From: a virus
Virus record (IMG/VR): IMGVR_UViG_3300042695_000114
Coordinates: 1 to 25,893 of that record
DNA: 25,893 nucleotides
Reading direction: 5' to 3' (one strand)
Positions 891 through 15,970 of the stretch are shown here, in pieces (within the stretch, counting starts at the first letter, position 1; the number at the start of each line of letters is the position of its first letter). The notes beneath the pieces were generated by a model. It did no database searches and had not been told where the DNA came from. It saw nothing but the letters and a program-made list of their open reading frames with translations. The position numbers and the translations under genes are program-made.

Positions 891-919
891 TGTGTCTTTC
901 CTCAGTTGATCGTAATCAT

Positions 920-947
920 ATATTATCATGTCGTAGTAGATTGTCAA
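920..947 (-). promoter_or_regulatory. sigma70-type promoter for the SSB gene
   Basis: On the minus strand there is a perfect -35 TTGACA (947-942), a 16-nt spacer, and a -10 TAATAT (925-920; 4 of 6 consensus). It overlaps the last codons of the DNA polymerase gene and lies about 30 nt upstream of the SSB start. The predicted leader is about 20 nt and holds the GAGGAAAG ribosome site. It uses the same 16-nt spacing as the promoters at 5900-5927 and 23861-23888. It would let SSB, needed in large amounts, be made independently of the long leftward transcript. Confidence 0.6.
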
Positions 948-2662
948 TGGGTTTCTGCCCAATTGTTCCCAACCTTGTATTCGCCGTCGAGAGGACAGTT
1001 CATCTTGAAGTATGAACCAGCATCTCTGATAGCCTGTACTTGCAGCTTACCAAGATCTTCTGCTCTTGTTTCTTCCACCTCCGTTTGCCATTCATCGTGG
1101 ACCCAGACAACCTGTTTGAAATTGATCTTCTCCTTCTTTGCTCTGTTATACCAGAAGACATTAGCCAGTCGCATGATGACAGTCTCACCGCCTTGGAGGT
1201 AGACAGAGAGAGACTTATGCTCAGACTCAATCTGTATTCTCCTGCCGTCAAGACCAACAAGATAACCACGCTGCGCTGCCATAGAAGCCTTACGCTTCAG
1301 TTCTTTCAGGGCAGGAATACTATGGAGGAAGTTATCCATAGCAACCCCTGCTTCTTTTACAGTACAGCCCAGTATCTGTGCTACCTTAGCCTGTCCTGCA
1401 CCAAGCAGCCAAGCATAGATAAAGGTCTTAGCTGTTGGGCGGTCCTTACAATGCTCACCCAAAGCATTCTTGTTAAAGGTATGGATGTCACCCTCAAGCA
1501 ATGTCTTCGTGTACTCAGGGTCATTCATGTAGTGGGCAAGTACACGAAGTTGTATTCCTGAAGCATCTGTTCCAACCAGTTTAGAGCCTCCGGGGACAGT
1601 CCAAGCCTGTCTGCATTCGTATGCAAATAGCCCAGATAAGCCACGCTCTGTGGTGATAGAGGGGATGTTCGCCATGTTGGGGTTCTGGTGAGTGGCTCTG
1701 TGGGTTGAGGCTCCGGGTACGATAACTTGTCCGTGGACTCTTCCATCTCCGTCCATTCTATCCAACCAGTCTTTTGCTGTCTTCCATCTTGTCTCAAGGA
1801 TCTTCCACCTCTTCAAGTCTTTAACACACTCAGGCATATCCCTACCGTCAGGCATACTATCAGGAATAGTATCAAGGTTTTCCTGACAGATCTTCCAACT
1901 CTTACCTGTCTTCGTAGGGACTGTCGGTTTCCAGCCAAGTTCGTCAAGTCGCTTAACGATCTGAGAAGGTGACCCAAGATTGAAGTATTCGACATGATCC
2001 TTTAACCTTTTACCTGTCTTCTCAGAGTACCGTTCTGTTACAATCGGAGGGAAGTACTGAACGATGGCATTTTCAATACGGTTAGCCTCTTGCAAAGCAC
2101 CAGTATAGATCTCCATAGCTACAGATTTATCCAGAAGAAAACCATTCCTGATTTGCTCAGAGATAATATACTGCATCGAATGCTCAAGGCGGATAGACTC
2201 AGCAGAGAAGCCTTTCATCTGGTGTGTTAGATGCAGGTACAGTTTCTCTGTAACCTTGACATCCTGTTTGCAGTACACCTTCATCTCTTCTGAGTACCTG
2301 TCGAAGGATTTGAACTCTAGTTTTCTTTCGCCAAGACGTTCACCCCATCGCTCAAGGGAATGCCCGTCCAGACTAGGCTGGTACATGCGGGACAGTACAA
2401 GAGTATCCGTTTGCCGTTGTACTGGTATAGTAATTCCCCACAGTTTGGACAAAGCCCATCCGTCAAAGTGTATTGAGTTGTGTCCAATATACTCTGCCCC
2501 GGAGAACTTATCATAAAATTCTCCAAACTTATCTTTGTCTCTGAAGATGTAGTATCCATCCTGCCCAACAATCTTTGCCACCAAGATATGAATAACCTTG
2601 GGATCAAGGGCATCAGTCTCGATGTCCCATACGATCTTCAATTTCCCAGTCTCGGATTGCAT
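944..2662 (-). CDS. DNA polymerase, family A with 3'-5' exonuclease (T7 gp5-like)
   Basis: 572 aa replicative polymerase. The exonuclease motifs are DIETDAL (D13, E15), GHNSIHFD (to D67) and YCKQD (Y130-D134). The polymerase motifs are motif A DASGIQLRVLAHY (D366), motif B RPTAKTFIY (R408, K412, Y416) and motif C VHDE (H522-E524), so all catalytic residues are present. A tyrosine at the motif B position matches T7 (Y526). The protein is about 130 aa shorter than T7 gp5 (704 aa) and shows no obvious room for the thioredoxin-binding insert of the thumb, as in other compact marine podovirus polymerases. The start overlaps the upstream 95-aa gene by about 50 nt. Very confident. Confidence 0.97.
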   Translation of the reverse strand: MQSETGKLKIVWDIETDALDPKVIHILVAKIVGQDGYYIFRDKDKFGEFYDKFSGAEYIGHNSIHFDGWALSKLWGITIPVQRQTDTLVLSRMYQPSLDGHSLERWGERLGERKLEFKSFDRYSEEMKVYCKQDVKVTEKLYLHLTHQMKGFSAESIRLEHSMQYIISEQIRNGFLLDKSVAMEIYTGALQEANRIENAIVQYFPPIVTERYSEKTGKRLKDHVEYFNLGSPSQIVKRLDELGWKPTVPTKTGKSWKICQENLDTIPDSMPDGRDMPECVKDLKRWKILETRWKTAKDWLDRMDGDGRVHGQVIVPGASTHRATHQNPNMANIPSITTERGLSGLFAYECRQAWTVPGGSKLVGTDASGIQLRVLAHYMNDPEYTKTLLEGDIHTFNKNALGEHCKDRPTAKTFIYAWLLGAGQAKVAQILGCTVKEAGVAMDNFLHSIPALKELKRKASMAAQRGYLVGLDGRRIQIESEHKSLSVYLQGGETVIMRLANVFWYNRAKKEKINFKQVVWVHDEWQTEVEETRAEDLGKLQVQAIRDAGSYFKMNCPLDGEYKVGNNWAETH

Positions 2663-2900
2663 CAGCTTGCTTTCTCAGGTATGCCGCAGTTGCTTCTAGT
2701 TCGTAGGCCAGCTTGGCAATAGCTTCCCTACCATCTTGTCTGATCGTTGGTGGGATACTTGGTACACACTGACTCTCAATGAAATCATTAGCCATCTTGA
2801 AAAAGGTAATGATCTCTTCCTTGTCATCGACAAAGATATGGAAACCTTCCTCGCTCAACCACCCATCGATGTACAAGGTAAACTTAGTTGTCATTTCCAT
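2613..2900 (-). CDS. Conserved small phage protein, unknown function
   Basis: 95 aa from the ATG at 2900, about 6 nt after a strong AGGAGG (2912-2907); adjacent ATGs at 2903 and 2894 are possible, giving 96 or 93 aa. No known family recognised. It has a hydrophobic-acidic N-terminal half (FTLYIDGW, FHIFVDDKEE) and a helical second half rich in Ala, Glu and Arg. It overlaps the helicase end (17 nt) and the polymerase start (50 nt), so it is embedded in the replication operon and probably co-translated with both. A polymerase or helicase accessory role is plausible from position only. Confidence 0.75.
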   Translation of the reverse strand: MEMTTKFTLYIDGWLSEEGFHIFVDDKEEIITFFKMANDFIESQCVPSIPPTIRQDGREAIAKLAYELEATAAYLRKQADAIRDWEIEDRMGHRD

Positions 2901-4461
2901 CATGCTCCTCCTGCCCAACGGGCTTATCAGGTTGCTCTTCGATTAGTCTGCCAGATTCAGTATGGTAACGGAGATGCGTAGCCAATCCTGTCATACCACT
3001 GAACCTGTTCTTGACTACACGGACACGGACGATGTGCCTCTCAGCAGGATCATCCGCCTGTGTATTCCTTTCAAGACCCAGAATGATATTAGACAACTGC
3101 CCAATCCCGGCAGTCCCACGGATATCAGACAGGCTAACAGCAGCGCCTTCTTCATGCGACTGACCATTCGGTTGCCTCTTCAAGTGTGCAGCCATGATGA
3201 TACAGATACCAAGCTCAACAGTCAATGTCTTAAGCTTGGTAGAGATCTCATCTAATGCACGGCGCTCATCACCATTGCTCTGGTCAGAGACTACAATAGA
3301 GATGTGATCCAGTACAACATACTTACAGTCCAAAGCACGGACAAGGTAACGTATAGTACTGAGAATCCTATCAATACTGTTACTGCCAAAGCTATCATAA
3401 AGAAATACACGGCCTGAGCCAACCGTTGCTTTATACGCATCATCGAACTCATCCTTTGTGTACTCTGCATCAGGGAGATAGAGTCTCTTATTCGCATGGA
3501 CAGACATCAACCCAAGACCAGTATCCCTGATAGGTTCTTCAAGGAAGAGGACACCGATGTTAGCCTCAGTGTTATTCAAGAGTCCATAGACAAGCTCTCT
3601 GAGGAATTGTGTTTTTCCAACGCCTGTTCCAGCAATGACAGTAACAAGTTCTCCAGTTCTGAGTCCATAGGTATAGTCGTTGACACCATCCCAAGGGTAG
3701 TTGACAGAGAGATACTCAGGCTTTCGGAGGAGAAGATCATAGATGCTTGACCCGGATACAATACCATCTGGTGTGAATGGTCCTGCTGTTCTGTGCTGCT
3801 CATAGAACTCCTTGATATTATTATTAACAAGATAATCAGAAGCATCCTTGTGATGGGACAGCTTCATGATCCTGACTTTCTTAGGATCAAAGAGACCAGC
3901 AGCCTTAGCCATAGCCTCCTGCCCTGCCTTATCATTGTCAAAGGCGAAGGTGATACGCTTAAAGGAATTGACCCATTCGTAGTTACGCTTCAGGTCAGAG
4001 ACAGCAGTGCTTGCTGAACAGACAGAGACAACAGGTTCATTCAGCATCTGGTATGCAGAGAGTGCATCAAGCTCGCCCTCTACAATAGTCAAAGAGTTAC
4101 CCCCTTGGGGGAACAACCCCTGACCAAACAACTCAACCTGACCCGGAGATCCAGACCAAGGGAAGCCAGCCTTATCAGGTAGTCTGGTCTTAACAGCAAT
4201 GAGTTTACCATCCTTATAGTACGGGTACATATGCCGTCCGTCATGCTGTAGGACTTTGTAGAACTCAACAGTCTTCTGGTTGATCCTCCGGTCATTGATA
4301 GGGGCGATGTCACCCTTCATCATCACTGGAGTATTGCTCATGTTCGTCATCTCTTCTTCACCTTTGAAGTACTTGTTGCATACGAAGCAGTACTGGTGGT
4401 CACCGTAATCGTATAGCCCGTCACTCGATGTCCCACAAGGGCAAGGTAGGTGCTTCTTCAT
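2884..4461 (-). CDS. Bifunctional DNA primase-helicase (T7 gp4-like)
   Basis: 525 aa. An N-terminal zinc-binding primase domain has Cys at 7, 9, 25 and 28 (CPCG ... CFVC). A TOPRIM domain carries IVEGELDAL (about 126-133) and FAFDNDKAG (172-180). The C-terminal RecA-like DnaB-family helicase has Walker A GTGVGKT (278-284), EE at 308-309, Walker B YVVLDH (381-386) and the AAHLKR motif (424-429). This is the T7 gp4 layout: primer synthesis plus 5'-3' unwinding at the fork. The first zinc knuckle is C-x-C rather than the C-x2-C of T7. A GAAAG ribosome site precedes the ATG. Upstream it overlaps a zinc-ribbon gene, downstream a 95-aa gene and polymerase. Confidence 0.96.
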   Translation of the reverse strand: MKKHLPCPCGTSSDGLYDYGDHQYCFVCNKYFKGEEEMTNMSNTPVMMKGDIAPINDRRINQKTVEFYKVLQHDGRHMYPYYKDGKLIAVKTRLPDKAGFPWSGSPGQVELFGQGLFPQGGNSLTIVEGELDALSAYQMLNEPVVSVCSASTAVSDLKRNYEWVNSFKRITFAFDNDKAGQEAMAKAAGLFDPKKVRIMKLSHHKDASDYLVNNNIKEFYEQHRTAGPFTPDGIVSGSSIYDLLLRKPEYLSVNYPWDGVNDYTYGLRTGELVTVIAGTGVGKTQFLRELVYGLLNNTEANIGVLFLEEPIRDTGLGLMSVHANKRLYLPDAEYTKDEFDDAYKATVGSGRVFLYDSFGSNSIDRILSTIRYLVRALDCKYVVLDHISIVVSDQSNGDERRALDEISTKLKTLTVELGICIIMAAHLKRQPNGQSHEEGAAVSLSDIRGTAGIGQLSNIILGLERNTQADDPAERHIVRVRVVKNRFSGMTGLATHLRYHTESGRLIEEQPDKPVGQEEHDGNDN

Positions 4462-4600
4462 CTTCTAGTTCTTTCAGTAGTACCGTTCGTTGAATAACAT
4501 TCTGGCATTCAGAGCATGGTGAGAACTTAACTCTGCCATTGTGCCTCTCAATTCTTATCTCTCCATCAGGTGCATCCTTGTTACAGACATAGCATCTCAT
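4421..4600 (-). CDS. Small zinc-ribbon-like protein
   Basis: 59 aa. It begins MRCYVCNKDAP and has a second pair, PCSECQ, near residue 30. Two CxxC pairs 22 residues apart suggest a single bound zinc, with an acidic C-terminal tail (KELEDEEAP). The start overlaps the upstream stop as TGATG, and the end overlaps the helicase start by 41 nt, so it is nested tightly in the operon. Small double-CxxC proteins beside primase-helicase genes recur in T7-like phages; their role is not known to me. It could bind nucleic acid or a host protein. Confidence 0.75.
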   Translation of the reverse strand: MRCYVCNKDAPDGEIRIERHNGRVKFSPCSECQNVIQRTVLLKELEDEEAPTLPLWDIE

Positions 4601-4791
4601 CAGATATTCCAGTACCTACAATAGAAATGTTTACCAAGAGAATCAATCTCATGGCGAGGGTACCCGTTATCTACAAGCCAGTCAAGTGTCCTGTGCTGGT
4701 GTTCCTTTGGGAGAACCTTCGGGAACCCATACTTCCACCCGTTAGGGGGATCTACCATGAGACGTTCAGCCTTCAACTCTGACGATGACAA
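4600..4791 (-). CDS. Conserved small phage protein (GWKYGFPK ... YCRYW type)
   Basis: 63 aa. Visible features are a PPNGWKYGFPKVLP segment near residue 15-28, a DWLVDNGYP helix and a closing KHFYCRYW. I recall similar short uncharacterised proteins in marine and rhizobial podoviruses, but no function. The start overlaps the HTH gene upstream by 26 nt, and the stop shares TGATG with the zinc-ribbon gene downstream. Lack of a clear ribosome site suggests translational coupling. Length and motif order look complete. Confidence 0.7.
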   Translation of the reverse strand: MSSSELKAERLMVDPPNGWKYGFPKVLPKEHQHRTLDWLVDNGYPRHEIDSLGKHFYCRYWNI

Positions 4792-5011
4792 TGCTGCCTC
4801 CTAGTGTGTTGATAACTGCTTCGATATCTGAAACCTTCGGGGAACTATCGTTGTTCCTCCACTTCCTGATAGTGTTGGCACCAATGCCAGACATCTCAGA
4901 TAGTTTCTCGTAGGTAATCTTTCTTTCCATTACCTGTTCATGTATCCACCTGATCATGGGGTGGATGTAAACATCAGTAGGTAGTGGCTTGAGTGGTTTA
5001 CCTTTAGTCAT
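4766..5011 (-). CDS. Cro/C1-type helix-turn-helix protein
   Basis: 81 aa from the ATG at 5011 (MTKGKPLKPLP); an upstream in-frame extension to 5089 lacks a ribosome site and runs into the previous gene. Residues about 33-51 (TYEKLSEMSGIGANTIRKW) form a classic Xre-family helix-turn-helix, followed by a helical segment and a C-terminal strand IVIVRVEG. Likely a small DNA-binding regulator of phage or host transcription. It overlaps the preceding gene's end by 8 nt. With no integrase or second repressor visible, it need not be a lysogeny repressor. Target operators are unknown. Confidence 0.8.
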   Translation of the reverse strand: MTKGKPLKPLPTDVYIHPMIRWIHEQVMERKITYEKLSEMSGIGANTIRKWRNNDSSPKVSDIEAVINTLGGSIVIVRVEG

Positions 5012-5192
5012 CAGTGTTATCCTGTGTAAGAGGGAGGATGATGCGGCTGGGGTTGAACGTGGGGCGCATCTCCATATCAGGCCATGCATTGATGGCAGCG
5101 GCGATGGCTCCCTTAGCGGTCAAGGTTCCGTCCATCCAAGCTTTGCGAAATGCACATTCCACCTCATCCGGTATCTGGTCAGCGCGGATCAT
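5004..5192 (-). CDS. Small protein, alphaproteobacterial-type hypothetical
   Basis: 62 aa. The motif IPDEVECAFRKAWMDG followed by AIAAAINAWPDME resembles short hypothetical proteins found in Rhizobiales and Sphingomonadales and their phages, where a 'IPDEVV.AA......AIAAALNAWPG' pattern recurs; this is from memory. GC is visibly higher than in flanking genes (about 60% in a line counted by hand, against about 43% around 4621-4680). The start shares ATGA with the upstream gene. Function unknown. It is part of a three-gene block with different base composition. Confidence 0.75.
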   Translation of the reverse strand: MIRADQIPDEVECAFRKAWMDGTLTAKGAIAAAINAWPDMEMRPTFNPSRIILPLTQDNTDD

Positions 5193-5464
5193 GTGTCACC
5201 TCCAAGGGGCTTCGCCATACGGTCCTGCGGACCTTCTAGAGCGGCAAGCGCGATGCGCCACCGCTGGTCATCCAATGTCATCGGGCCAGCGTCACGGATT
5301 TCCTTCAGCGCCGCCCTCAGCCGCTCAATCTCATCAGCAGCTTCAACAAGAAGAGTATCGCGCTTTCCATCGTAGCCACACGAACAGTCATACTCACGAC
5401 CTTGGCAACCACGCTCATGGTCATCTCTTGCGTAACCGCGCAGCTTCTCCACTGTGTCAGCCAT
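5189..5464 (-). CDS. Small cysteine-containing hypothetical protein, GC-rich
   Basis: 91 aa, start MADTVEKLRG chosen because GGAGGTGA lies 4 nt upstream. A CQGREYDCSCGYDGKRD segment (three Cys, residues about 20-37) is followed by a long helix LLVEAADEIERLRAALKEI. Similar Cys-then-helix hypotheticals are common in rhizobial genomes and phages, from memory; the function is unknown. GC is about 60% in the line counted. The C-terminus includes GPQDRMAKPLGGDT and ends at ATGA with the next gene. Likely an acquired host-range or accessory gene. Confidence 0.75.
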   Translation of the reverse strand: MADTVEKLRGYARDDHERGCQGREYDCSCGYDGKRDTLLVEAADEIERLRAALKEIRDAGPMTLDDQRWRIALAALEGPQDRMAKPLGGDT

Positions 5465-5630
5465 TCTCACCTCCAAGGGCAGTGCGCAGCTTGGCGTTCT
5501 CTTCCAATAGTCTACGGATCTCCTGCTTCAACCTTTCGTTCTCAGTATCCATACTCTTGTTCTCTACCTTGTAAGTGTACAGCATACTTTGAAGGTGTTC
5601 CAGTTCCCTATCCCTGTGTATCTCACTCAT
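5457..5630 (-). CDS. Short coiled-coil protein
   Basis: 57 aa from the ATG at 5630 (MSEIHRDRELEHLQ). The upstream frame to 5696 overlaps the preceding gene and has no better ribosome site. Almost the whole protein is a predicted coiled coil with heptad leucines: LEHLQSMLYTYKVENKS, then ENERLKQEIRRLLEENAKLRTAL. It overlaps the upstream gene by 8 nt and the next by 8 nt. Such short coiled coils can act as oligomerisation adaptors or inhibitors, but nothing here points to a partner. Confidence 0.65.
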   Translation of the reverse strand: MSEIHRDRELEHLQSMLYTYKVENKSMDTENERLKQEIRRLLEENAKLRTALGGENG

Positions 5631-5826
5631 GCATAGCATCCTGTTGCTTCTTGTTTCTCTCAATACAAATAGCATTCCACCCGATGAAGTCACCATTACT
5701 CTTAAGCTTGTTCATCTCTTCACTGAACATCTGTACATCTGGGCAGTTGTCTACATCAAAAACCTTCATGTTAAGGTTACCCTCATTGGTAATGACAGAC
5801 ATGACAAAGATAAATTTGGTGAGCAT
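5623..5826 (-). CDS. Small hypothetical protein, first gene after leftward promoter
   Basis: 67 aa; AGGAG lies 7 nt before the ATG at 5826, which decides the start. A hydrophobic beginning MLTKFIFVMSVI is followed by VFDVDNCPDVQMFSEEMNKLKSNGDFIGWNAICIERN, which looks like a small alpha/beta fold. No family recognised. The first residues could be a weak signal or just a beta strand. It is the first gene transcribed from the consensus promoter at 5900-5927, with a leader of about 65 nt carrying a GGGGT/ACCCC hairpin. This makes it likely to be well expressed. Confidence 0.7.
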   Translation of the reverse strand: MLTKFIFVMSVITNEGNLNMKVFDVDNCPDVQMFSEEMNKLKSNGDFIGWNAICIERNKKQQDAMHE

Positions 5827-5867
5827 GTTAGATCTCCTGTGTTAATCACTGATTTGTACCTACGATA

Positions 5868-5881
5868 GGGGTTAACACCCC
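5868..5881 (-). promoter_or_regulatory. Leader hairpin or operator GGGGTGTTAACCCC
   Basis: Read on the minus strand, GGGGTGTTAACCCC forms a 5-bp GGGGT/ACCCC stem with a 4-nt loop. It lies 18 nt downstream of the -10 box of the leftward promoter, so it is near the 5' end of the transcript. Thirteen of 14 bases match the element at 23906-23919, which sits at nearly the same distance from the other consensus promoter. No T-tract follows, so a terminator is unlikely. It could be an mRNA-stabilising hairpin or a repressor site. Confidence 0.55.
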
Positions 5882-5899
5882 GCCAACATTGGTTCAATG

Positions 5900-5927
5900 A
5901 TTATACTGGTATTCGTCTAACTGTCAA
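5900..5927 (-). promoter_or_regulatory. Consensus sigma70 promoter, leftward
   Basis: Minus strand TTGACA (5927-5922), 16-nt spacer, TATAAT (5905-5900). Both boxes are perfect. The -35 lies within the last codons of the gene ending at 5917. The expected transcript starts near 5893 and reads into the gene at 5826, the GC-rich cassette and the replication block. A CCAA..TTGG dyad spans the expected start site, followed by the GGGGT/ACCCC hairpin. A perfect match to both boxes is unlikely by chance and indicates use of host RNA polymerase. Confidence 0.85.
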
Positions 5928-6087
5928 TGAGTTTAACCAGTGTATCCCTAAGTTCAATGATCTGGTAGTACTTCGGGGTAGGTTCCTCATTGTAATAGTG
6001 GAACTCCTGATCCATATCATACAACCTACGATCCATAGCCTCCACCAATAACTCAACCTCAAACTTATTAAGACTGATCTTGTACAT
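5917..6087 (-). CDS. Small acidic hypothetical protein
   Basis: 56 aa (MYKISLNKFEVELL ... TLVKLIDS). A GGAGAAAGC ribosome site precedes the ATG by 3-4 nt after the core. Mostly helical and acidic, with an aromatic centre (FHYYNEEPTPKYYQ). No family recognised. It overlaps the HTH gene upstream by 20 nt, and its last codons contain the -35 box of the leftward promoter, so it closes the first early sub-operon. Good ribosome site and packed context support it as real. Confidence 0.65.
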   Translation of the reverse strand: MYKISLNKFEVELLVEAMDRRLYDMDQEFHYYNEEPTPKYYQIIELRDTLVKLIDS

Positions 6088-6355
6088 TTGCTTTCTCCAT
6101 CTTGTACTTAACTGTATCCGTAAGGCCCGGTATAAAGGGCAGGGAAGGCCTTGTATCCCTACCCTCTACATCCATGCCTGTCTCATAGACTGCCCGTCCA
6201 GCCCCCATTTCTAGGCTAATACGCTGGTGTTCACGATAGATGATGCCCAGTACTTGGTTAGTAGTAAGCCCCATCTGAAGTCCGACTAGCCTATACGATA
6301 GACCATCTTTCTTTAAAGCAACCACCTCATCTATTACAGCCTTAGGATGCACCAT
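6068..6355 (-). CDS. GcrA-like helix-turn-helix protein
   Basis: 95 aa. Residues about 6-45 (VIDEVVALKKDGLSYRLVGLQMGLTTNQVLGIIYREHQR) match the N-terminal HTH pattern seen in GcrA-like and other 'LKKDGLSYRQIA..LGLT.NQV.GI.YR' proteins. The C-terminal half is polar with no clear domain. AAGGTGG lies about 7 nt upstream of the ATG. The gene begins 3 nt after the GP88-family gene ends. Likely a small DNA-binding regulator; in alphaproteobacteria GcrA itself acts with sigma70, so interference with host transcription is conceivable but unproven. Confidence 0.65.
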   Translation of the reverse strand: MVHPKAVIDEVVALKKDGLSYRLVGLQMGLTTNQVLGIIYREHQRISLEMGAGRAVYETGMDVEGRDTRPSLPFIPGLTDTVKYKMEKANVQDQS

Positions 6356-6357
6356 AA

Positions 6358-7014
6358 TTACGCCACCTTTCTGACACGATTGATCTGAACGTTGATCTTC
6401 TTCTTCGGTGTATGCAGAGGATACACGACTAGACTGATAGACTTATCCCAACAGGCACGGCAAGGACCACACTTACCACCTCTGGTATAGGCATCGCAGA
6501 GTTTAGCACCATCGATGGTATCGGTGATCTCTTGGACTACGACAGAGCCATGCTCTTCTGTGTAGACTCCATTGGTAGACGGGGAAGAGTATCTGACACT
6601 GGCATTCGGCAGTGACTTAATTCTATCCAGCCAGTACCTGATCTTGGGAATAGTGTAAGACTTAGACGGGAGCCAGTGATGGCACCATGGTGTACGCCTG
6701 ATGACTTCATAGATCTTTTGTGCAAGCGCAGCAGAGTAAACGTCACCCGAATCAAACCAACGGAAGTATCGCTCTGTGTCCAAGGCTTGGACCATATCAT
6801 CCGCCCAAGAAATACGCTTCCAGTCTTGCCTGTTATGCTGGCGTGGCTTGATGACATTATCCATCCGATAGAATCCAGACTTGGCATAGCAGTCACGGCA
6901 TACCTCTATAACTTCTTTAGTTACTGGATTGATACTGCCCGGACAAGTCTCCCCTGCTTGGAGGGACCATGATTTACCGGGCATCTTGCTTGCCTTGGAC
7001 AACAGAACTGGCAT
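6358..7014 (-). CDS. GP88 family protein (PF17338-like), unknown function
   Basis: 218 aa; start MPVLLSKASKMPGKSWSL chosen on GGAGGAG 7 nt upstream, rejecting a 29-residue extension. The KMPGKSWSLQAGETCPG opening, CRDCYAKSGFYR (Cys 39 and 42), NRQDWKRISW and FRWFDSGDVYS blocks match the phage 'gene product 88' family. A late Cys cluster GGKCGPCRACW adds three cysteines, so metal or Fe-S binding is plausible. Family members occur in many phages and plasmids; the biochemical role is not established. It sits in an early operon of small proteins, consistent with host takeover or DNA metabolism. Confidence 0.85.
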   Translation of the reverse strand: MPVLLSKASKMPGKSWSLQAGETCPGSINPVTKEVIEVCRDCYAKSGFYRMDNVIKPRQHNRQDWKRISWADDMVQALDTERYFRWFDSGDVYSAALAQKIYEVIRRTPWCHHWLPSKSYTIPKIRYWLDRIKSLPNASVRYSSPSTNGVYTEEHGSVVVQEITDTIDGAKLCDAYTRGGKCGPCRACWDKSISLVVYPLHTPKKKINVQINRVRKVA

Positions 7015-7015
7015 G

Positions 7016-7276
7016 TTAGAACTCCTCCATTGCATTGTCAGACCAGAACATAGGTTCACTGTAACAGGACCAAACAGTAACCTCCTGCACAACAGGATCA
7101 CCCCAGAAATCTACATCCACCTGATCACGGTACATGACATAGACTTTATCCCAGCCACCCATATCCTCCTCACTACAGTACTTCTTAGCCCAGTTAACGG
7201 CAGATGTTCTCCAATCTGTTTCGTGTAGGCAGACAGTATCATCCGTCTTTCTATCCCAGCCCATGATATAGAACAT
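7016..7276 (-). CDS. Acidic, tryptophan-rich small protein
   Basis: 86 aa from MFYIMGWDRKTDDTV; AGGAGGTGG lies about 4 nt upstream of the ATG at 7276, which itself overlaps the previous stop as TAATG. Rich in Asp/Glu and Trp, with a central WAKKYCSEEDMGGWDKVYVMYRD segment and a TVWSCYSEPMFWSDNAMEEF end. The strong negative charge suggests a protein-protein inhibitor or DNA mimic, but composition alone does not prove it. No family recognised. The next gene starts 2 nt after the stop. Confidence 0.7.
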   Translation of the reverse strand: MFYIMGWDRKTDDTVCLHETDWRTSAVNWAKKYCSEEDMGGWDKVYVMYRDQVDVDFWGDPVVQEVTVWSCYSEPMFWSDNAMEEF

Positions 7277-7566
7277 TATTCCACCTCCTGTATTGGCAGT
7301 GCAGATACCATACAAGTAACCCAGTTGTGCAGATCTTCCACCGCATACATAGCCTCGGATCTCTTGTACTTCCGGCCAGTGTACACCGTAGCCATCTTCA
7401 ATAGCTTACTAATAGTGACTCCCCTTGTTGGGATAAGACCGCATTTAACATACAGCTTGATGCTAGTCTTGATCATGTTGACCCTGAACAGTTCAGTAGC
7501 ATCTCTTCCTACATAGGAAGTCGCTTCTTTCCGGCCCTTAGAATAGACGATGTATGAGTCTTCCAT
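7276..7566 (-). CDS. Small basic hypothetical protein
   Basis: 96 aa with an excellent ribosome site (AAAGGAGGT). Features: YVGRDATELFRVNMIKTSIKLYVKCGLIPTRGVTISKLLKMATVYTGRKYKRSEAMYAVEDL. The middle is basic with helix-turn-helix-like spacing (TRGVTISKLLKMATVYTGRKYKRS), so nucleic acid binding is possible. No family recognised. Ends with TAATG overlap into the acidic protein gene; a basic/acidic gene pair could encode interacting partners, but that is speculation. Confidence 0.7.
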   Translation of the reverse strand: MEDSYIVYSKGRKEATSYVGRDATELFRVNMIKTSIKLYVKCGLIPTRGVTISKLLKMATVYTGRKYKRSEAMYAVEDLHNWVTCMVSALPIQEVE

Positions 7567-8203: not shown

Positions 8204-8542
8204 TCAGCACCCCATCCTTCTCTCTGCGTTACGCATTGCTTCATACTCATAGTCATCCTGCAACTGTTGTTCGTATGCTTTCACCTCATCCTCCGTCATC
8301 CTATCATAGTCAGCTACTGTGATCTTGCCACTACCTCCGCAGCAGTCACAAGATTTGTCAAAGTTACCTGCGAAGTAATCTTCTATGAACTCATCACCTT
8401 GCTCACGTAATTCATCCCAAGTAAAGTCTCCAAGATACGCACTTGACCTGCCTTCTCCTGAGCAGTGAGAACATATCTCCCACTTATAGGGTAGAGCAAT
8501 CGGCTCACCATCTTCACTGTAAATGTACGGGACTTTAATCAT
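8204..8542 (-). CDS. DnaJ-type zinc-knuckle protein (two CxxCxGxG repeats)
   Basis: 112 aa with AGGAGGT 8 nt before the ATG at 8542. Two cysteine knuckles, CSHCSGEG (about 24-31) and CDCCGGSGKI (about 65-74), match the CxxCxGxG unit of DnaJ and many phage small zinc proteins. A long acidic stretch (DELREQGDEFIEDYF) lies between them and an acidic helix follows. It probably binds one zinc. It heads the tight run of small leftward genes. The function (chaperone-like, or host factor binding) is not determinable from sequence. Confidence 0.75.
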   Translation of the reverse strand: MIKVPYIYSEDGEPIALPYKWEICSHCSGEGRSSAYLGDFTWDELREQGDEFIEDYFAGNFDKSCDCCGGSGKITVADYDRMTEDEVKAYEQQLQDDYEYEAMRNAERRMGC

Positions 8543-8620: not shown

Positions 8621-8640
8621 ACAATAAAAAAAAAGAAAGG

Positions 8641-8658
8641 TTTTCCTACGTAGGAAAA
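8641..8658. repeat. Perfect 18-bp palindrome TTTTCCTACGTAGGAAAA
   Basis: Perfect dyad just beyond the terminator of the gene at 8722-9228. A nearly identical dyad (one base changed) lies at 9288-9305 on the other side of the same gene. No T-tract geometry fits an intrinsic terminator in either direction. It could be an operator, a recombination site, or a cassette boundary. Confidence 0.7.
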
Positions 8659-8675
8659 GATAGGTAAAAAGGTTT

Positions 8676-8707
8676 AATAAAAAGGGAGGACCATTGCTGA
8701 TCCTCCC
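8676..8707 (-). terminator. Rho-independent terminator for the 8722-9228 gene
   Basis: Leftward, the RNA forms a 7-bp stem GGGAGGA/TCCTCCC (8707-8701 with 8690-8684) closing a 10-nt loop, directly followed by TTTTTATT. The stem starts about 15 nt after the stop codon. This separates the first leftward gene from the downstream run of small genes. Confidence 0.85.
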
Positions 8708-8721
8708 GGTTTATATTAAGT

Positions 8722-9228
8722 TTATTTCTTCACTTTCTTGTTCATGAAGGCCTCAATCTGGTGGTGCAGGTAAGAGTCAAAGGCCTTGAGGTTTTCCATA
8801 TCTAGGCCCGCCCGGATATTGTTTGCCCGCTCAATCCAGTCCGGCAATTCAGCATTGTTAAGATTGATATGTTCAATCTTGGGCGTTTCGTCTTCAGTAG
8901 AGTTTGCTTTCTTTGCCGCTGAGATTGCTTTCTTCCAATCGGCATACTTGGCAAACTGGTGGTTTACGCCCAGCTCTAGGGCGCTCCGGGAAAGGCTCCG
9001 GTAGTTAGCCAACGTCTTAGGCATTGGTTCGCCGTCAAGGCCAGCGTCACGGTCTTTCCAGCCGTTTGTGGCGGCAATAGAGGCCCACACAGTGTTGATA
9101 TCGTTCCCGTCGAATTCAGCCTGAGCAAGCACCAGCAGCAATTCGTCGGATAGTGCCGCTTGCCCGTTAGCCTGAGCGATAAGCAGCTTGGCTACGTCGT
9201 TGGCGCGGCGGATATGGTCGATTTTCAT
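8722..9228 (-). CDS. Hypothetical protein next to the control region, GC-rich
   Basis: 168 aa, GGAAAG 11 nt before the ATG. Mostly helical: an N-terminal block RRANDVAKLLIAQANGQAALSDELLLVLAQAEF, a central WASIAATNGWKDRD and ANYRSLSRSALELGV, an AISAAKKANSTEDETPK linker, and a basic end (FMNKKVKK). No family recognised. GC is about 60% in a line counted, against about 38% in the adjacent gene, so it may be recently acquired. It has its own terminator and is bracketed by two matching palindromes. As the gene nearest the divergent control region it is a candidate immediate-early product. Confidence 0.8.
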   Translation of the reverse strand: MKIDHIRRANDVAKLLIAQANGQAALSDELLLVLAQAEFDGNDINTVWASIAATNGWKDRDAGLDGEPMPKTLANYRSLSRSALELGVNHQFAKYADWKKAISAAKKANSTEDETPKIEHINLNNAELPDWIERANNIRAGLDMENLKAFDSYLHHQIEAFMNKKVKK

Positions 9229-9287
9229 TTGGTTTTACTTTCCAGTTTTGAGTTGAGGTTAGTTGGACGTTAGGCCCGTCCCGTTGA

Positions 9288-9305
9288 TTTTCCTACGTGG
9301 GAAAA
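9288..9305. repeat. 18-bp palindrome TTTTCCTACGTGGGAAAA, second copy
   Basis: Matches the dyad at 8641-8658 at 17 of 18 bases, and the single change breaks only the central pair symmetry. It lies about 60 nt upstream of the ATG of the gene at 8722-9228, where an operator controlling that gene would sit. Together with the other copy it brackets the gene and its terminator. Confidence 0.7.
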
Positions 9306-9350
9306 CCAATGGCACAGGCCCCTACAGAGCCCCAGCTTGTCAGGCTTCTA

Positions 9351-9752: not shown

Positions 9753-9841
9753 TAATTTTTTGAGTCATACCCGGTATGCGTCAGGTGCATATCATTCACG
9801 TTTTGTTCCCTTGGGTAAAACAATTATATAAAACAATATGT

Positions 9842-9857
9842 TAGGAATATATTCCTA
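9842..9857. repeat. 16-bp palindrome in the AT-rich tract
   Basis: TAGGAATATATTCCTA is a perfect dyad. It is set in strongly AT-rich DNA (about 9820-9910) with repeated TATACAAT-like words (9873-9896). A CCTAGGG word follows and recurs at 9923-9929. AT-rich DNA with a dyad beside the divergent promoters is a reasonable place for duplex opening at a replication origin, but no specific origin motif is recognised. Confidence 0.5.
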
Positions 9858-10109
9858 GGGCCTCCCCTAAGTATATACAATAAGTTTATACAATATATAG
9901 ATAAAATCTCTTTAGGTTTACTCCTAGGGTTAACGGGTGGGAGGGGGGTTAGGGCTACCTTCCATCCCCCTAATCACAACTAAAGATTTTCTCAGAAAAA
10001 TTCTAGACAAATGGGTTTTACCCCTAGTCATCCGTAGCATTTACCTGTGACATATCAGCGCAGATATATTATTATGTTGATCTAGACCGGGGGTGAGACA
10101 TAATAGTTC

Positions 10110-10138
10110 TTGATTCCCGGTTAGCTATATGTTATAAT
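10110..10138 (+). promoter_or_regulatory. Rightward extended -10 promoter for the structural arm
   Basis: TTGATT (10110-10115), 17-nt spacer, TATAAT (10133-10138), with TG one base before the -10 box (TGTTATAAT). The -10 is perfect and the -35 matches 4 of 6. Transcription would start near 10145, leaving a leader of about 180 nt before the gene at 10327. A CCCGGTT/AACCGGG inverted repeat (10116-10122, 10151-10157) and a GTTATAATAAC dyad cover the -10, so a repressor could control it. Confidence 0.7.
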
Positions 10139-10206
10139 AACCATATGTTAAACCGGGGGGATTAAACTTAAGTTAGACTAGTCCTAGATAGAGGTAATAA
10201 AATCTC

Positions 10207-10265
10207 TAAGGTACTAAAGTTAAAGTATCTTACCTAAGGAACAACTAATAGTATAACCTATAGTT
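10207..10265 (+). ncRNA. Structured 5' leader with two hairpins
   Basis: In the predicted leader, UAAGGUACU (10207-10215) pairs with AGUAUCUUA (10224-10232) as 9 bp including one G-U, around an 8-nt loop. Ten nucleotides on, AACU-A-AUAG (10243-10251) pairs with CUAUAGUU (10258-10265) with one bulge and a 6-nt loop. No T-tract follows either. They could protect the mRNA 5' end, be RNase III sites, or regulate downstream translation. Confidence 0.45.
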
Positions 10266-10326
10266 AAACCATTCTTATCTTTTGTCTTTCTTTTGTCTAA
10301 CCATTCTTTGACAGGGGCTCGAATTT

Positions 10327-10671
10327 ATGGGTGTCTACTCACCAGCAGGGAATCTTTATGTAACTGTCAATGACACGACAGGTACTGGAAGGTATGCTGC
10401 TGATGGTTCTGTCAGGATTACTCTTGTCTCTGGTAGTACCTATACTGGTCTGTATGCCCCTGATGGGTCCATGAATGTGGTCAAGGAGGATGGACCTCTC
10501 TATCATCCCTGCGGTGCTGTCCGAGGTATTATCCCCTATGGTGGTCGTAGTCTTCATGCTCCTTCTGGGGCTTTCTATATGGATGGTCTTGACCAGTCCT
10601 TCTTTAATCTTGAGACTGAGGATGGGTTTAACCTCCTTCAGGAAAACTCTAGCTTCATTCTTCTGGAATAG
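10327..10671 (+). CDS. Five-repeat small protein, likely virion-associated
   Basis: 114 aa made largely of five copies of a strand-turn-strand unit with consensus [GP]-x-[YH]-x-[PA]-x-G-[SNA]: GVYSPAGNL (2-10), GRYAADGSV (21-29), GLYAPDGSM (41-49), PLYHPCGAV (57-65) and SLHAPSGAF (75-83). The spacing of 16-20 residues suggests a short beta-solenoid or beta-propeller-like repeat. It is the first gene after the rightward promoter and lies 7 nt before the tailspike, so a tail or fibre-associated role is likely but not shown. A ribosome site is weak (GGGGC about 9 nt upstream). Confidence 0.7.
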   Translation: MGVYSPAGNLYVTVNDTTGTGRYAADGSVRITLVSGSTYTGLYAPDGSMNVVKEDGPLYHPCGAVRGIIPYGGRSLHAPSGAFYMDGLDQSFFNLETEDGFNLLQENSSFILLE

Positions 10672-10678
10672 GATCAGT

Positions 10679-12745
10679 ATGGCTAAGAAACCGAATATCA
10701 CAACAGTTACTTCTGGGTACCAGTCTACGGATGTTTTGAATACAAACTTCCAGAACCTGCGTGATGCTTTTGATAATGTCTTGTCCAGAGATGGCAGTAC
10801 TCCTAACTTTATGGATGCTGACCTTGACATGGATTCTAATGACATCCTTAATGTCAACACCCTCAGCGTTGAGGGTCTCTACATTAATGGCCAGCCAGTC
10901 TCACCGGGTACTATCCAGTACAATGGTGTTACGAAAGAGACACAGGTAGCTACCTCAGGTCAGACAGTCTTTAATCTTTCTAATATTACATACACACCGG
11001 GGATTAACAATCTTTCGGTCTACGTCGATGGTGTATACCAGAATCCGACTACATACTCTGAGACTAATGCTACAAGGGTAACATTCTCTGTTGGTCTCCA
11101 CGTAGGAGCTATCGTTGACTTCGTAGCCCTTACTATTAATGCTATCTCAGGTACAACAGACGCTACCTCTGTAACTTATACTCCTGCCGGATCTGGAGCA
11201 GTTACAACTTCAGTTGCTAATAAGCTTAAGGAGACTGTTTCAGTCAAGGACTTTGGTGCCGTAGGCGATGGCGTTGCGGACGATACGGCCGCTATTCAAG
11301 CCGCGATTAACTCTTTTAAGACAAATGGCATACCTATTCTACTGAACGGAAATTTTCGGATAACCGCGCCGCTTGTCTATCAAACGCAGGGTAGCTCTAG
11401 CGGCTTGCAGATTGTTGGAACCGGCATTTACGACAGTTCGATCATTGCCGATTTTACAGGTACAACCGCCTTTGATATTGATGGATCATCTCTCCAGAAA
11501 AATAGATTTCAATACGGTGGCGGGTTCCGCGATTTTCAGATTACAACTGCACTCGGCGCGGCGGTTGAAAACGCCATCACATGTAATGGGTGGTGGTTTG
11601 CAACGCATAGCAACTTGCTGATTGGTAATTTTGGCTCTGCTTCGTTCACAAAAAATGGCCTTTACATTCCGTTACGGACAGACATCGACGCAAACCCGGA
11701 TGCTTACGCCTCTGTTAATTGGGCGTTAAACAGCGTTCAGATAGATTTTATGGGTGAGTATGGCGTCTATGGCGCTAACAACACCGGATATGCAAACTGG
11801 ATTATCAATGGCGGGCGTTTTGAACGCAACGGCTTGGACGGTTTGTATGTCAACACTAATGGGTGGCGCGTTACTAATGCGGCAATCGCCGCAAACGGCC
11901 GTTACGGTATCAACTACACTGGTTCGGCCAGCATTACGCTTACGAACGGTTTTTTTAGCCAGTGCGAAATAGATGGTAACGCAACTGCTGGCATTCGTAT
12001 AAGCCGCGTCAACAGCGGCGTATTTCAAAACATGCGTTTGATAAGCCGCGTATTAAACACGGTTGAGACGCAACTAACACATGTATTGGGCGACGGCGCC
12101 AACGTTATTCTGGGGATGGAAATGGCCAATTTCTACCATAGAGTTGAAACAGGAATTACGTCTCCTGTGACGCTATACAGTTTTGGTTCTGCTTCTTCAA
12201 ATGTACAGGGCAACACCATTAAAGGTTACTCGCTGCTTAATTCAGCGGGAGTTACTGTTACAGAACAGTCTGCGGCTCTTCTTGATCGCAGGTACAAGAA
12301 CTACGTTTCGGATCGTTTTGGTGCCGAGAAAACAGCATCCCCAACCAAATTTGCTTGGTCTAGTCAAAGCAACCAAGCGATCACTAACACACTCTCGACG
12401 TGGATTTTTGACCAGAATGTTTCGGCTACAGGCTGGACCGACTATAATACCACTACGGGCGTTTTGACCGCTCCGCACAACGGGTTTTATTTCTTCAACA
12501 TAAACTTCAATCTTACGAGTGTCCCTGCTGGCGAACGCATTGTTGTTAACTTGGTGCGTGCGGGGTCTGTAATTCGTACTTGGTATTGGGATTGGCCTTC
12601 TGGTGTCGGCGCAGACCGCTGGGCGTTTACTGCATCTGATCTAGTCACTGTCAACGCAAGCCAGCAGCTACTTATTGAGGTTCAAGCCACTGTTGCCTCT
12701 GCTACGCTGTTTGGCAACGCAAAACTTGACATATTTGCGGTGTAG
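10679..12745 (+). CDS. Tailspike / tail fibre with T7-type adaptor and beta-helix domain
   Basis: 688 aa; start MAKKPNITTVTSGYQSTD at 10679 after AGGA, rejecting a 68-residue extension across the preceding gene. Residues 1-65 resemble podovirus fibre N-termini that bind the tail (FQNLRDAFDNVLSRDGSTPN, DADLDMDSNDILNV). Residues about 90-160 carry a QTVFNLSNITYTPGINNLSVYVDG repeat domain. From about 200, VKDFGAVGDGVADDTAAIQAAI begins a pectate-lyase-3-like right-handed beta-helix, typical of capsule depolymerases. The C-terminal about 120 residues look like a C1q/TNF-like jelly roll (GFYFFNINFNL). Composition becomes more GC-rich from about 11270, suggesting the adaptor was joined to an acquired receptor-binding part. 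Confidence 0.88.
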   Translation: MAKKPNITTVTSGYQSTDVLNTNFQNLRDAFDNVLSRDGSTPNFMDADLDMDSNDILNVNTLSVEGLYINGQPVSPGTIQYNGVTKETQVATSGQTVFNLSNITYTPGINNLSVYVDGVYQNPTTYSETNATRVTFSVGLHVGAIVDFVALTINAISGTTDATSVTYTPAGSGAVTTSVANKLKETVSVKDFGAVGDGVADDTAAIQAAINSFKTNGIPILLNGNFRITAPLVYQTQGSSSGLQIVGTGIYDSSIIADFTGTTAFDIDGSSLQKNRFQYGGGFRDFQITTALGAAVENAITCNGWWFATHSNLLIGNFGSASFTKNGLYIPLRTDIDANPDAYASVNWALNSVQIDFMGEYGVYGANNTGYANWIINGGRFERNGLDGLYVNTNGWRVTNAAIAANGRYGINYTGSASITLTNGFFSQCEIDGNATAGIRISRVNSGVFQNMRLISRVLNTVETQLTHVLGDGANVILGMEMANFYHRVETGITSPVTLYSFGSASSNVQGNTIKGYSLLNSAGVTVTEQSAALLDRRYKNYVSDRFGAEKTASPTKFAWSSQSNQAITNTLSTWIFDQNVSATGWTDYNTTTGVLTAPHNGFYFFNINFNLTSVPAGERIVVNLVRAGSVIRTWYWDWPSGVGADRWAFTASDLVTVNASQQLLIEVQATVASATLFGNAKLDIFAV

Positions 12746-12748
12746 ATA

Positions 12749-13936
12749 ATGCTTACGCCAGGATACAACTTGACTGCCACTGAACGTGTCCTCCCGCGTT
12801 TGGCTTTGGATTTTACGACGGCATCTTTGGATAGCCGCGTAACTGTTTCCCGCGCGCTTGACACAGCCACGCGCATAAACAGCAGTGGGTTTATTGAGAC
12901 GGTAAACGCAAATCTACCGCGTTTTGATTACGACCCCGTCACCATTGGAACATGCAAAGGTTTGCTTATCGAAGAGACGCGGGCAAATGCGCTGCCCAGC
13001 AGCAATGATTTTACTAACGCAACATACTGGGTAGTCAACGGATCACCGACAGTTTTAGCCGATCAGGTTTCTTCGCCAGACGGCACTACAAATGCCTGCA
13101 CCATGGAAGTATCGGGGGCCAGCAACGGATTTGGTGTCTATTCTGCCGCGACTTTTGCCGCAGGCACATACACAGCATCGCTTTATTTCAAACCTATTTC
13201 CGGCAACCTAGTGTTTCGTTTAGGGTTTAGCACGACTAACTCAACCATAAACATGAACACCTTGGCTATCGTAAACGGCGCTAACAGCGTTGGTACTGTA
13301 GAAGCTGGGCCTAACGGGTACTATCGCTTCAAGGTGACTGTAACTACGGCGTCTACTTTGTCGCTTAACATCTATAGCATTGGCAGCAACACTGGAAAGA
13401 TGGCGTTCTACGGGGCGCAAATTGAAGTCGGTGCCTTCGCTACGAGCTATATTCCTACGACGACGACAAGCCTGACGCGAAATGCCGATGTCGTCAGCAT
13501 GACAGGAACCAATTTCAGCGATTGGTATAACGCCAGCGAAGGTACGTTTGCTGCTCGGGGCACTCGTTTTGCTACTGGTTTAGTGACGAACATTCTTGGT
13601 GTTTCGGATGGCACAACGACCAACCGCATCCGTCTGTACCAAGAAACCAATAACCGCATGACAATTAATACTCCTGTGCTGGGCAGCACGACGACCGGAA
13701 ATGGCGGTTCAACATACGGAGTTGCCTCCGCATATTCTTCTAATGGTGTCGGCATTTCATGTAATGGAGGGACTGTTGCGGTTTCGGGCGCTGGGGCATT
13801 GCCAACGGGCATTTCGTCAATGGATATCGGCCGCAATAGCCCAGCATCTACCGTAACATTGAATGGTTGGCTGCAATCAATTCGCTATTGGCCGCAACGT
13901 CTAACCAATGCTGAACTTCAAGCCTTTTCAAAATAA
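12749..13936 (+). CDS. Lectin-like receptor-binding or virion protein (LamG-like)
   Basis: 395 aa beginning 3 nt after the tailspike stop. The N-terminal region LALDFTTASLDSRVTVSRA, ATRINSSGFIE, NLPRFDYDPVT and GLLIEETRAN is a common arrangement in phage proteins with carbohydrate-binding jelly rolls. A middle beta-rich domain (about 85-225) ends GAQIEVGAFATSYIPT. The C-terminal domain, closing GWLQSIRYWPQRLTNAELQAF, looks like a concanavalin/LamG fold. No catalytic motif is visible. Codon use is GC-rich like the tailspike's beta-helix, so the two probably arrived together. Likely binds host surface glycans. Confidence 0.75.
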   Translation: MLTPGYNLTATERVLPRLALDFTTASLDSRVTVSRALDTATRINSSGFIETVNANLPRFDYDPVTIGTCKGLLIEETRANALPSSNDFTNATYWVVNGSPTVLADQVSSPDGTTNACTMEVSGASNGFGVYSAATFAAGTYTASLYFKPISGNLVFRLGFSTTNSTINMNTLAIVNGANSVGTVEAGPNGYYRFKVTVTTASTLSLNIYSIGSNTGKMAFYGAQIEVGAFATSYIPTTTTSLTRNADVVSMTGTNFSDWYNASEGTFAARGTRFATGLVTNILGVSDGTTTNRIRLYQETNNRMTINTPVLGSTTTGNGGSTYGVASAYSSNGVGISCNGGTVAVSGAGALPTGISSMDIGRNSPASTVTLNGWLQSIRYWPQRLTNAELQAFSK

Positions 13937-13945
13937 GGATTTATC

Positions 13946-15520
13946 ATGGCTTTGACTAAAGTAACATACTCCATGATTGAAGGCGCAACCGCCAACATTT
14001 TGGATTTTGGTGCCTCTCCGTCAAATTCTGCTGCAGATAATACTACAGCGATCAATGCGGCTATTCAAGCAGCTAACAGTATTTATATACCATCTGGTGT
14101 ATTTACAACAAATTTTATTACATTGCGTTCTGGTGTATCAATTTATGGTGCTGGTCCTTCATCTATCCTGTCATTTCCGGCTGGACAATCTGGACTATAC
14201 GGTCTTTCTTCTGGCGCTGGAAGCTATCTAGAAGACATTACACTTTCAAACTTTAAGCTGCTAGGCGCGGTTGCAGCATCCGGGTTTAGTGAATTTGTTC
14301 ATCTGATTAACGTCAATGGCGTCCGCAATCTTTTAATTGATGGAGTGCAATTTGTAGGCTTCCAAGGTGATGGCCTGTATCTTGGAGCGCACTCCGACAA
14401 CACGCGCCATAATATTAATGTATCTGTTACAAACTGTTTGTTTGACGGTGTTAACAAAGATAATCGCAATGGTATTAGTGCTATTGATTGTGATGGTCTA
14501 AAAGTAAGCGGCTGCTCCTTTAAACGCCTTACTCGGTCAAACATGCCGGGGCCAATTGATATTGAACCAAACGTCAACGCAAATACAGTCAGAAACATTT
14601 CAGTCATTGGAAACAGTTTTGAGGATACGGACGCGGCTGTAGGTGTGTTCAGCGTTGCTGTTGTTGGCAAGACTTTAACAGTTGACCCTACTAATTTTAC
14701 TTTTAGTAACAACATTGTAAATGCTACTCAACGCATGGTAACGTTTCTTGTTGATGGAACTTATACGTCAAACCACAATCTTAATGTTATTGGGAATACG
14801 TCAGTTGGTACTGGAGGCGGAGGTCAATTTTACCCAAAACTACATGGCGGATGTTTTTCTAACAATATAATACGTGGTGGAACGTTGTTTGGCTTTTCTG
14901 CCGGAGATAGTATTAAAGACCTATCCATTATTGGAAATACTTTTGATGGCGCTAGCGTAACCGATAGAGCGTTTAACTTGCGTGACGGTAGCGGTATTAC
15001 AATTTCCGGTAACACTTTTTCAAATTACACTACCTACGGATTTTTGTGTGGTATTTCTGGCGGCACTCTTTCAAACGTGTCAATCACAGGTAATACGTTT
15101 GTGAACGTAAGCACCTATGCTGTTGGTTCAGCTGGTGGCACTGATGGTTCAACTTGTACTTATATGAACAATACCAGCGCAGTCACACATCAGTTTCCGG
15201 CTTGGAGAACTGATGACACAGGTAACATCACCAATGGTGATACCTCGCCTACTACGTTTAATGCTGACAATCTTCCTAGTGAGTTTGCTCGCCAAGGTAT
15301 TTTTAGATCAACAATAAACGGTGATACGGCTGTTCCTAATACTAGTGGGCGTCAGGGGCTTCTTGAAACACATTGCGAAGCGGGACAAAACGGGCGCAAA
15401 TGGAAGTACCAAGTGTACTGGCCCGCAAACAACACGACCAATGTAAAAAGTTTTTATCTGCGTAAAGCGGCAAATGCTACCGATACATGGGAAACGTGGG
15501 CAGAAGTAGTTGGCGTTTAA
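13946..15520 (+). CDS. Second beta-helix tailspike / putative depolymerase
   Basis: 524 aa after an AAGGAT ribosome site. MALTKVTYSMIEGATANILDFGASPSNSAADNTTAINAAIQAA opens directly into a pectate-lyase-3-type beta-helix (compare FGAVGDG..DDTAAIQAAI in the first tailspike). Repeated coil signatures follow: INVNGVRNLLIDGV, ISVIGNSFED, LSIIGNTFDG, ITISGNTFSN and VSITGNTFVN. The last 100 residues (RQGLLETHCEAG, WKYQVYWPA, ETWAEVVG) form a typical fibre C-terminal domain. It lacks a T7-type anchor, so it may attach through the first spike or another protein. Base composition is AT-rich, unlike the two genes before it, implying a separate origin. Confidence 0.82.
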   Translation: MALTKVTYSMIEGATANILDFGASPSNSAADNTTAINAAIQAANSIYIPSGVFTTNFITLRSGVSIYGAGPSSILSFPAGQSGLYGLSSGAGSYLEDITLSNFKLLGAVAASGFSEFVHLINVNGVRNLLIDGVQFVGFQGDGLYLGAHSDNTRHNINVSVTNCLFDGVNKDNRNGISAIDCDGLKVSGCSFKRLTRSNMPGPIDIEPNVNANTVRNISVIGNSFEDTDAAVGVFSVAVVGKTLTVDPTNFTFSNNIVNATQRMVTFLVDGTYTSNHNLNVIGNTSVGTGGGGQFYPKLHGGCFSNNIIRGGTLFGFSAGDSIKDLSIIGNTFDGASVTDRAFNLRDGSGITISGNTFSNYTTYGFLCGISGGTLSNVSITGNTFVNVSTYAVGSAGGTDGSTCTYMNNTSAVTHQFPAWRTDDTGNITNGDTSPTTFNADNLPSEFARQGIFRSTINGDTAVPNTSGRQGLLETHCEAGQNGRKWKYQVYWPANNTTNVKSFYLRKAANATDTWETWAEVVGV

Positions 15521-15542
15521 ACACTATAGTAAGGATAAATAA

Positions 15543-15968: not shown

Positions 15969-15970
15969 GA

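Follow-up and report, generated by a model that had tools for sequence, protein, structure and literature searches.

Early genes that regulate themselves through operators are familiar from phages. CI and Cro of phage lambda and C2 of P22 are autoregulated repressors with symmetric operators, and in T7 the gene 0.3-type slot is the first early gene slot. For phages such as the one described here the early genes are mostly unnamed and, to our knowledge, little has been established about how they order early expression.

The DNA analysed here comprises 25,893 nt (positions 1–25,893 of the IMG/VR record IMGVR_UViG_3300042695_000114) and is referred to as the window; contigs of relatives are designated by L numbers. 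The window probably represents a siovirus-like phage, judged by its primase/helicase, which is ∼55% identical over 96% of the protein to those of SIO1-type records (Siovirus/Cobavirinae: SIO1, P12053L and ICBM1). The window further encodes a DNA polymerase and a terminase large subunit; its replication genes run leftward from 9228 and its structural genes rightward from ∼10327. As published, cobaviruses have two arms of opposite direction with a bidirectional terminator between them, and cultured members carry direct terminal repeats (PMC6775973). When the arm order of the window is compared with this layout by eye, the divergent region would, by analogy, hold the joined genome ends, and a leftward gene for a 168-aa product (8722–9228, minus strand) is probably the first gene of the early/replication arm.

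This gene is bracketed by two 18-bp palindromes. Like the operators of CI, Cro and C2, the site is symmetric with a degenerate centre, occurs in two to three copies near a small gene of regulatory size and covaries between phages. Unlike in these systems, no helix-turn-helix (HTH) repressor fold was recognised in the 168-aa product, and the sites are placed in the leader and past the terminator, where no promoter-like match covers them. The locus shares with the T7 gene 0.3 slot that a single-gene unit, presumably at the genome entry end, differs between close relatives. The two differ in that no named early protein was matched here, and we know of no counterpart to palindrome control at the T7 slot. 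P12053L (10 kb read) and SIO1 (16 kb read) differ from the window in holding one weak site match each, with scores of 11.2 and 11.5; site scores of 9–12 are at chance level, since shuffled windows give 0.75 matches each at this threshold. The literal 18-mer was absent from the open-access literature searched, in which a few search terms also retrieved nothing combining early genes, palindromes and autoregulation. Within that search, no description emerged of the site or of its position within an exchangeable module.

Some resemblance exists to the site of Noc, ATTTCCCGGGAAAT, and to the ParB site parS, TGTTTCACGTGAAACA. The Noc half-site TTTCCC and the parS centre ACGT are similar to sites of the window type, and the gene-bearing relative L015 has ATTTCCC-ATGT-GGGAAAT, but the spacing differs, and a Pfam scan of eight window proteins gave no ParB match. 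The likeness is likely due to chance.

Palindromes and the bracketed gene in the window

The original prediction, made from the letters of the window, described two 18-bp palindromes differing at one base, and this is what we found: TTTTCCTACGTAGGAAAA at 8641–8658 and TTTTCCTACGTGGGAAAA at 9288–9305. They are the only two matches at ≤3 mismatches in the 25.9-kb window (0.02 expected), and none of 100 shuffles reached two matches. The approximate consensus, TTTCCYAYRTRGGAAA, is two-fold symmetric with a YR centre. A single gene with its own terminator had been placed between the palindromes, in agreement with the leftward ORF of 168 aa and an intrinsic-terminator-like hairpin on the minus strand (8707–8684), which has counterparts in L018 and L014. 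Along the transcript, the upstream palindrome is followed by 59 nt of presumed leader, the start codon, the gene, the terminator, the downstream palindrome, a T-rich tract and the next early gene (8204–8542, minus strand, 112 aa with CxxC motifs), so that the downstream copy stands past the terminator and ahead of the rest of the early operon.

The gene had also been described as clearly higher in GC. It does exceed the window average (51.7% vs 45.3%), but the stretch 5001–5500 is richer still, at 57%. Since the gene has 46–53% GC in six relatives against 41.5–44.5% in the following 2 kb, the higher GC is a modest family trait.

A third, weaker palindrome had been overlooked. It lies at 7504–7521 (core TTCCTACATAGGAA, site score 15.3) within a conserved downstream gene, 7276–7566.

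The T-rich tract after the downstream palindrome (8622–8640 on the transcribed strand) is present in the window, L014, L015, L018 and L035, and lies ∼110 bp later in L032. Repeats resembling TAGAAGGTRGC follow the tract in several of these six sequences.

Conservation in gene-bearing relatives

Scanning IMG/VR with the primase gave 39 loci, six of them with the bracketed gene, and scanning with an alignment of the gene gave eight, L049 and L051 being added. The downstream site is present in all nine gene-bearing contigs (these eight and the window). Of the nine, eight (the window among them) cover the gene together with both flanks, and all eight have both sites; the upstream copy thus has a counterpart in the 7/7 other contigs that hold its flank, while L015, which has the downstream site, ends before it. 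The outer arm of the upstream site is imperfect in L035 and L051. The contigs are not independent of each other, as L032 and L034 have the same sequence here and L018 and L049 encode the same protein. The start-to-start distance of the flanking sites, 647–676 bp, is mostly set by gene length.

The type of site changes in both copies together, being CCTA..TAGG in the window and L014 and CCCA..TGGG in L018, L032, L034, L035, L049 and L051; the upstream copy of the window is mixed, with one arm of the other type. The bracketed gene is the only ORF family found in 8/8 gene-bearing and 0/6 gene-lacking loci (L034 left out), and two further families occur at seven gene-bearing and no gene-lacking loci, all of these loci being unequal in coverage. 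L014 holds two more, weaker site matches elsewhere in the contig.

Other features of these genomes include a short HTH protein, GcrA-like by eye (6068–6355 of the window, minus strand), which is common to gene-bearing and gene-lacking relatives, and two tRNA genes each in L014, L015, L018, L029 and L032, between 11.5 and 16.2 kb.

Gene-lacking relatives and exchange of the early module

Six gene-lacking loci were read at the slot (L004, L013, L016, L017, L029 and L036). Related slot genes are found in the first four, that of L016, the one scanned, matching phrog_1448 (E 2.4e-47). In L029 the slot holds a different small ORF, and the sequence of L036 is the same at this place. The idea that the two alternative slot genes form one protein family was dropped, as a profile comparison of their families A2 and A3 (8 and 3 sequences) gave no match.

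L004 shows zero mismatches to the window over 1–7479 (7,479 bp) and 9839–25893 (16,055 bp), and differs in the segment 7480–9838, which holds the bracketed gene, the CxxC gene and all three palindromes. In place of the bracketed gene L004 has a phrog_1448-type gene, and no such palindrome occurs within 3 mismatches in its 43 kb. The two ends of this contig (43,231 bp) share a repeat of 199 bp that has one mismatch, which suggests that the alternative module runs on from one end into the other; chimeric assembly of the window or of the L004 contig may still be the source of the difference. Since L004 lacks the gene together with all sites, the sites seem to travel with the gene, which suggests an exchangeable early module swapped between otherwise matching phages. 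The third site is lost in L004 by four synonymous differences within the gene MEDSYIVYSK... Its core matches TTCCYAYRTRGGAA in five of the seven gene-bearing sequences covered (window, L014, L018, L035 and L049; not L032 and L015) and in 0/6 gene-lacking sequences (duplicate loci including L034 left out), a tie to gene presence that is suggestive only, as the sequences are related.

The proposal of a cassette-like unit therefore stands insofar as gene and palindromes lie inside a segment that is replaced in L004, but the flanking palindromes are not the boundaries of the exchange. In the only pair that is near-identical, the outermost differences fall at 7480 and 9838 rather than at 8641 or 9305. 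An empty site with a single copy, expected for a cassette, did not appear, as neither slot flank carries a flanking site in any of the six gene-lacking relatives. The flanking pair does not mark the ends of a mobile element.

Copies also occur away from the gene. The records of L004, L029 and L036 have none within 3 mismatches; in L013, L016 and L017, three of the six gene-lacking relatives, one site lies inside the gene MTLIVRYPSKKEL.., which counts against a strict link of gene and site. The gene-bearing L015 has the same coding site as L016 and one more in a paralog, and the two contigs are 92–98% identical in aligned blocks downstream. As to palindromes in unrelated places, named beforehand as an argument against a cassette, two downstream genes do contain extra copies, of which three belong to gene-lacking contigs. 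Exact IMG/VR scans with two 16-base versions of the site returned 33 and 12 stretches, 45 in all, of which two belong to L015 and L035 and the 43 new ones were examined. Five of the 43 are in gene-bearing contigs. The other 38 have no homolog of the gene (tblastn, E≤1e-4), and a second site within 2 mismatches occurs only in L087, 1.3 kb away, so that within the scanned set paired sites accompany the gene. The other observation named as contrary, two palindromes with no gene between them, was not made among these 38 stretches with an exact 16-base copy, the second match of L087 being weak. Site copies in L001, L060 and L074 look coincidental on reading.

In L015, the paralogs at 1058–1318 and 1694–1903 are ∼35% identical, and the stretch TTCCCATGTGGGAAAACCGTTGAA around the palindrome, which is coding, is nearly unchanged between them.

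The 168-aa protein

No Pfam, PHROG or NCBIfam assignment was obtained for the 168-aa protein. Its AlphaFold model, based on an alignment of eight sequences, is mostly helical (pLDDT 80, pTM 0.59). The invariant run PMPKTLANYRS..SR enters and occupies helix 71–86 of this AF2 model, a region that is compatible with a nucleic-acid-binding helix. A fold search of the PDB with the model gave nothing at E≤0.001, and in a second look the best Z among the families listed there was 4.3 over 81 residues, a value of little significance when the model is helical.

A fold search of BFVD, the only route by which the Pseudomonas homologs came to light, matched the Pseudomonas phage PPpW-3 protein V5YTR4 (E 9e-4), which is taken to be ORF-59 of that phage by its length of 183 aa. 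PPpW-3 ORF-59 was in turn matched in 16 phage records, itself twice among them. Alignment of the window family with five aligned ORF-59-type proteins by hhalign (prob 92, E 5.5e-7, 148 columns) indicates that the 168-aa protein is a remote homolog of unnamed Pseudomonas phage proteins. The set consists of PPpW-3 ORF-59, MR5 gp06, pphageBV72_04, Torfinnsbu CDS0068 and DDSR119 gp35; MR5 and pphageBV72 belong to the Krylovirinae, and their two genes sit near the start of the record, comparable to the presumed first position of the window gene in its arm. Unlike the window gene, none of the five is bracketed by such palindromes, and the 20-bp palindrome that DDSR119 has ∼170 bp upstream is unrelated. 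Nothing in our analysis supports the label 'guanosine nucleotide pyrophosphohydrolase' of the DDSR119 protein. No homolog was found in the bacterial genomes scanned, in viral contigs searched with the window protein alone, or in phage records by tblastn with the window and L014 proteins.

Proposed regulation of the early module

We tentatively favour, at slightly less than an even chance, that the palindromes are sites for the gene's own product and control this gene together with the early operon behind it. A dimer of the 168-aa product would bind the two-fold symmetric palindromes. From its positions in the leader and just past the terminator, the bound dimer would restrict both transcription of the gene and read-through into the following early genes, either as a roadblock or by forming a loop of ∼650 bp, and gene and sites would move together as an exchangeable early module. 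Binding by the own product fits best because the sites are symmetric, covary, flank one gene, stand before the next operon and are absent along with the gene in L004. Counting against it are the missing recognisable DNA-binding fold, the five Pseudomonas phage homologs without flanking palindromes, the site copies in gene-lacking L013, L016 and L017 together with the extra weak matches in L014, and the lack of a promoter-like match at either site. In consensus scans of the window, L018 and L014 a promoter candidate ends 130 bp (L018) and 184 bp (L014) before the site, and the window has no minus-strand match near it; hits showed no clear excess over shuffles (6 vs 3.9 in the window, 2 vs 3.6 in L018, 3 vs 4.6 in L014). 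Because a single exchanged segment holds both gene and sites, linkage and function are inseparable here; nor do the relatives count as independent samples. A more specific version, in which the protein would represent a novel family of mostly helical nucleic-acid binders, recognise the bracketing palindromes as DNA and perhaps also in its leader RNA and close a repression loop around its gene, with gene, leader and sites swapped as one module between otherwise identical phages, appears doubtful to us.

Among the alternatives, RNA-level control through the upstream copy ranks first. The palindromes would then act in the early transcript, by translational control, attenuation or RNase III-type processing that splits the mRNA from the operon, which we regard as unlikely. 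The upstream palindrome stands at the tip of a long predicted hairpin (9272–9321, minus strand, z −4.2), and the leader inverted repeat folds strongly in all five sequences compared with shuffles, with −36 to −46 kcal/mol and z scores of −4.2 to −7.0 (−5.8 to −7.0 in the four relatives) against shuffles that preserve base composition only. The lower stem of the window hairpin is unlike that of the relatives and yet pairs, and by inspection the outer pair is G-C in L014 and A-U in L018. The palindrome itself, however, is conserved in sequence beyond pairing alone, and that it is kept while the lower stem differs and still pairs points to sequence-specific recognition. Moreover, in six of seven predicted leader folds, all but that of the window, its arms do not pair together, one pairing with outer sequence and the other lying in the loop; on the transcribed strand a C/A mismatch interrupts the upstream copy of the window, the start codon is outside the hairpin, and folding gave no long stem for the downstream copy. 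The window leader had no Rfam match at E≤1, and at Rfam gathering scores seven sources yielded tRNAs only. Less probable again is that a host regulator, a nucleoid protein or another phage protein binds sites that merely travel with the module. Such a binder would accommodate both the absence of a known DNA-binding fold in the 168-aa protein and the copies in gene-lacking L013, L016 and L017, and the short GcrA-like protein shared by both groups of relatives could be one; that protein is also encoded by L004, L029 and L036, though, and these have no copy of the site although their hosts are presumably similar. Two other candidates were rejected: the next gene of the module was not found in L018, which keeps both sites, and the Cro-like HTH protein at 4769–5089 matches only L004 and L006 among the loci compared and is not common to the gene-bearing relatives.

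Roles of the palindromes in DNA rearrangement or replication were also considered. That they are exchange sites, used by a recombinase or in replication-linked breaking and joining of a mobile cassette, is improbable. The window/L004 difference at 7480 is 24 bp from the third palindrome and that at 9838 is 4 bp from TAGGAATATATTCCTA, a palindrome of another kind, at 9842, and the similarity of L015 and L016 starts ∼42 bp before one coding copy, a separate block ending ∼11 bp after another. Ordinary homologous recombination would nevertheless also be expected to give junctions near the starts of conserved genes, the two flanking copies are not boundaries, and a single-copy scar was not seen. 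Highly improbable is a service in replication or end processing near the genome terminus, as an origin or as a hairpin of the kind found in the concatemers of T7. In its favour, a T-rich tract follows the downstream site, where the cumulative GC skew of the window has its minimum, and the two-arm layout and direct terminal repeats given for cobaviruses in PMC6775973 would by analogy put joined ends into the divergent region. The skew minimum lies elsewhere in the six gene-bearing relatives tested, whose loci are truncated, and a replication origin placed by GC skew, being at the site in the window only, was discarded; L004, L029 and L036 have no sites at all.

Returning to binding by the gene's own product, the sequence comparisons taken together suggest a self-regulating, exchangeable early-infection module. 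It offers a defined candidate pair of protein and site that is directly testable. In addition, the window and L004 form a natural near-isogenic pair in which, across the length of the window, nothing but the early module differs, and the effect of the module on infection could be compared in one backbone.

Two further elements were noticed at these loci. The leader of the alternative first gene (L016:4396–4727, L013, L017 and L029:6756–6960) contains a block of ∼90 nt that hardly differs between L016 and L029, in contrast to the divergent sequence around it. The L016 leader is closed by a stem of GGACAAACGCAACGG and CCGTTGCGCTTGTCC with one mismatch and had no Rfam match at E≤1; the block is possibly an undescribed structured RNA. 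A second family of palindromes, comprising TAGGAATATATTCCTA and its variants, has the half-site TAGGAA in the opposite orientation and occurs repeatedly in several relatives within the divergent region; members lie at 9842–9857 in the window, at 4001, 4076 and 4138 in L016, at 6428 in L029 and at 3251 in L032.
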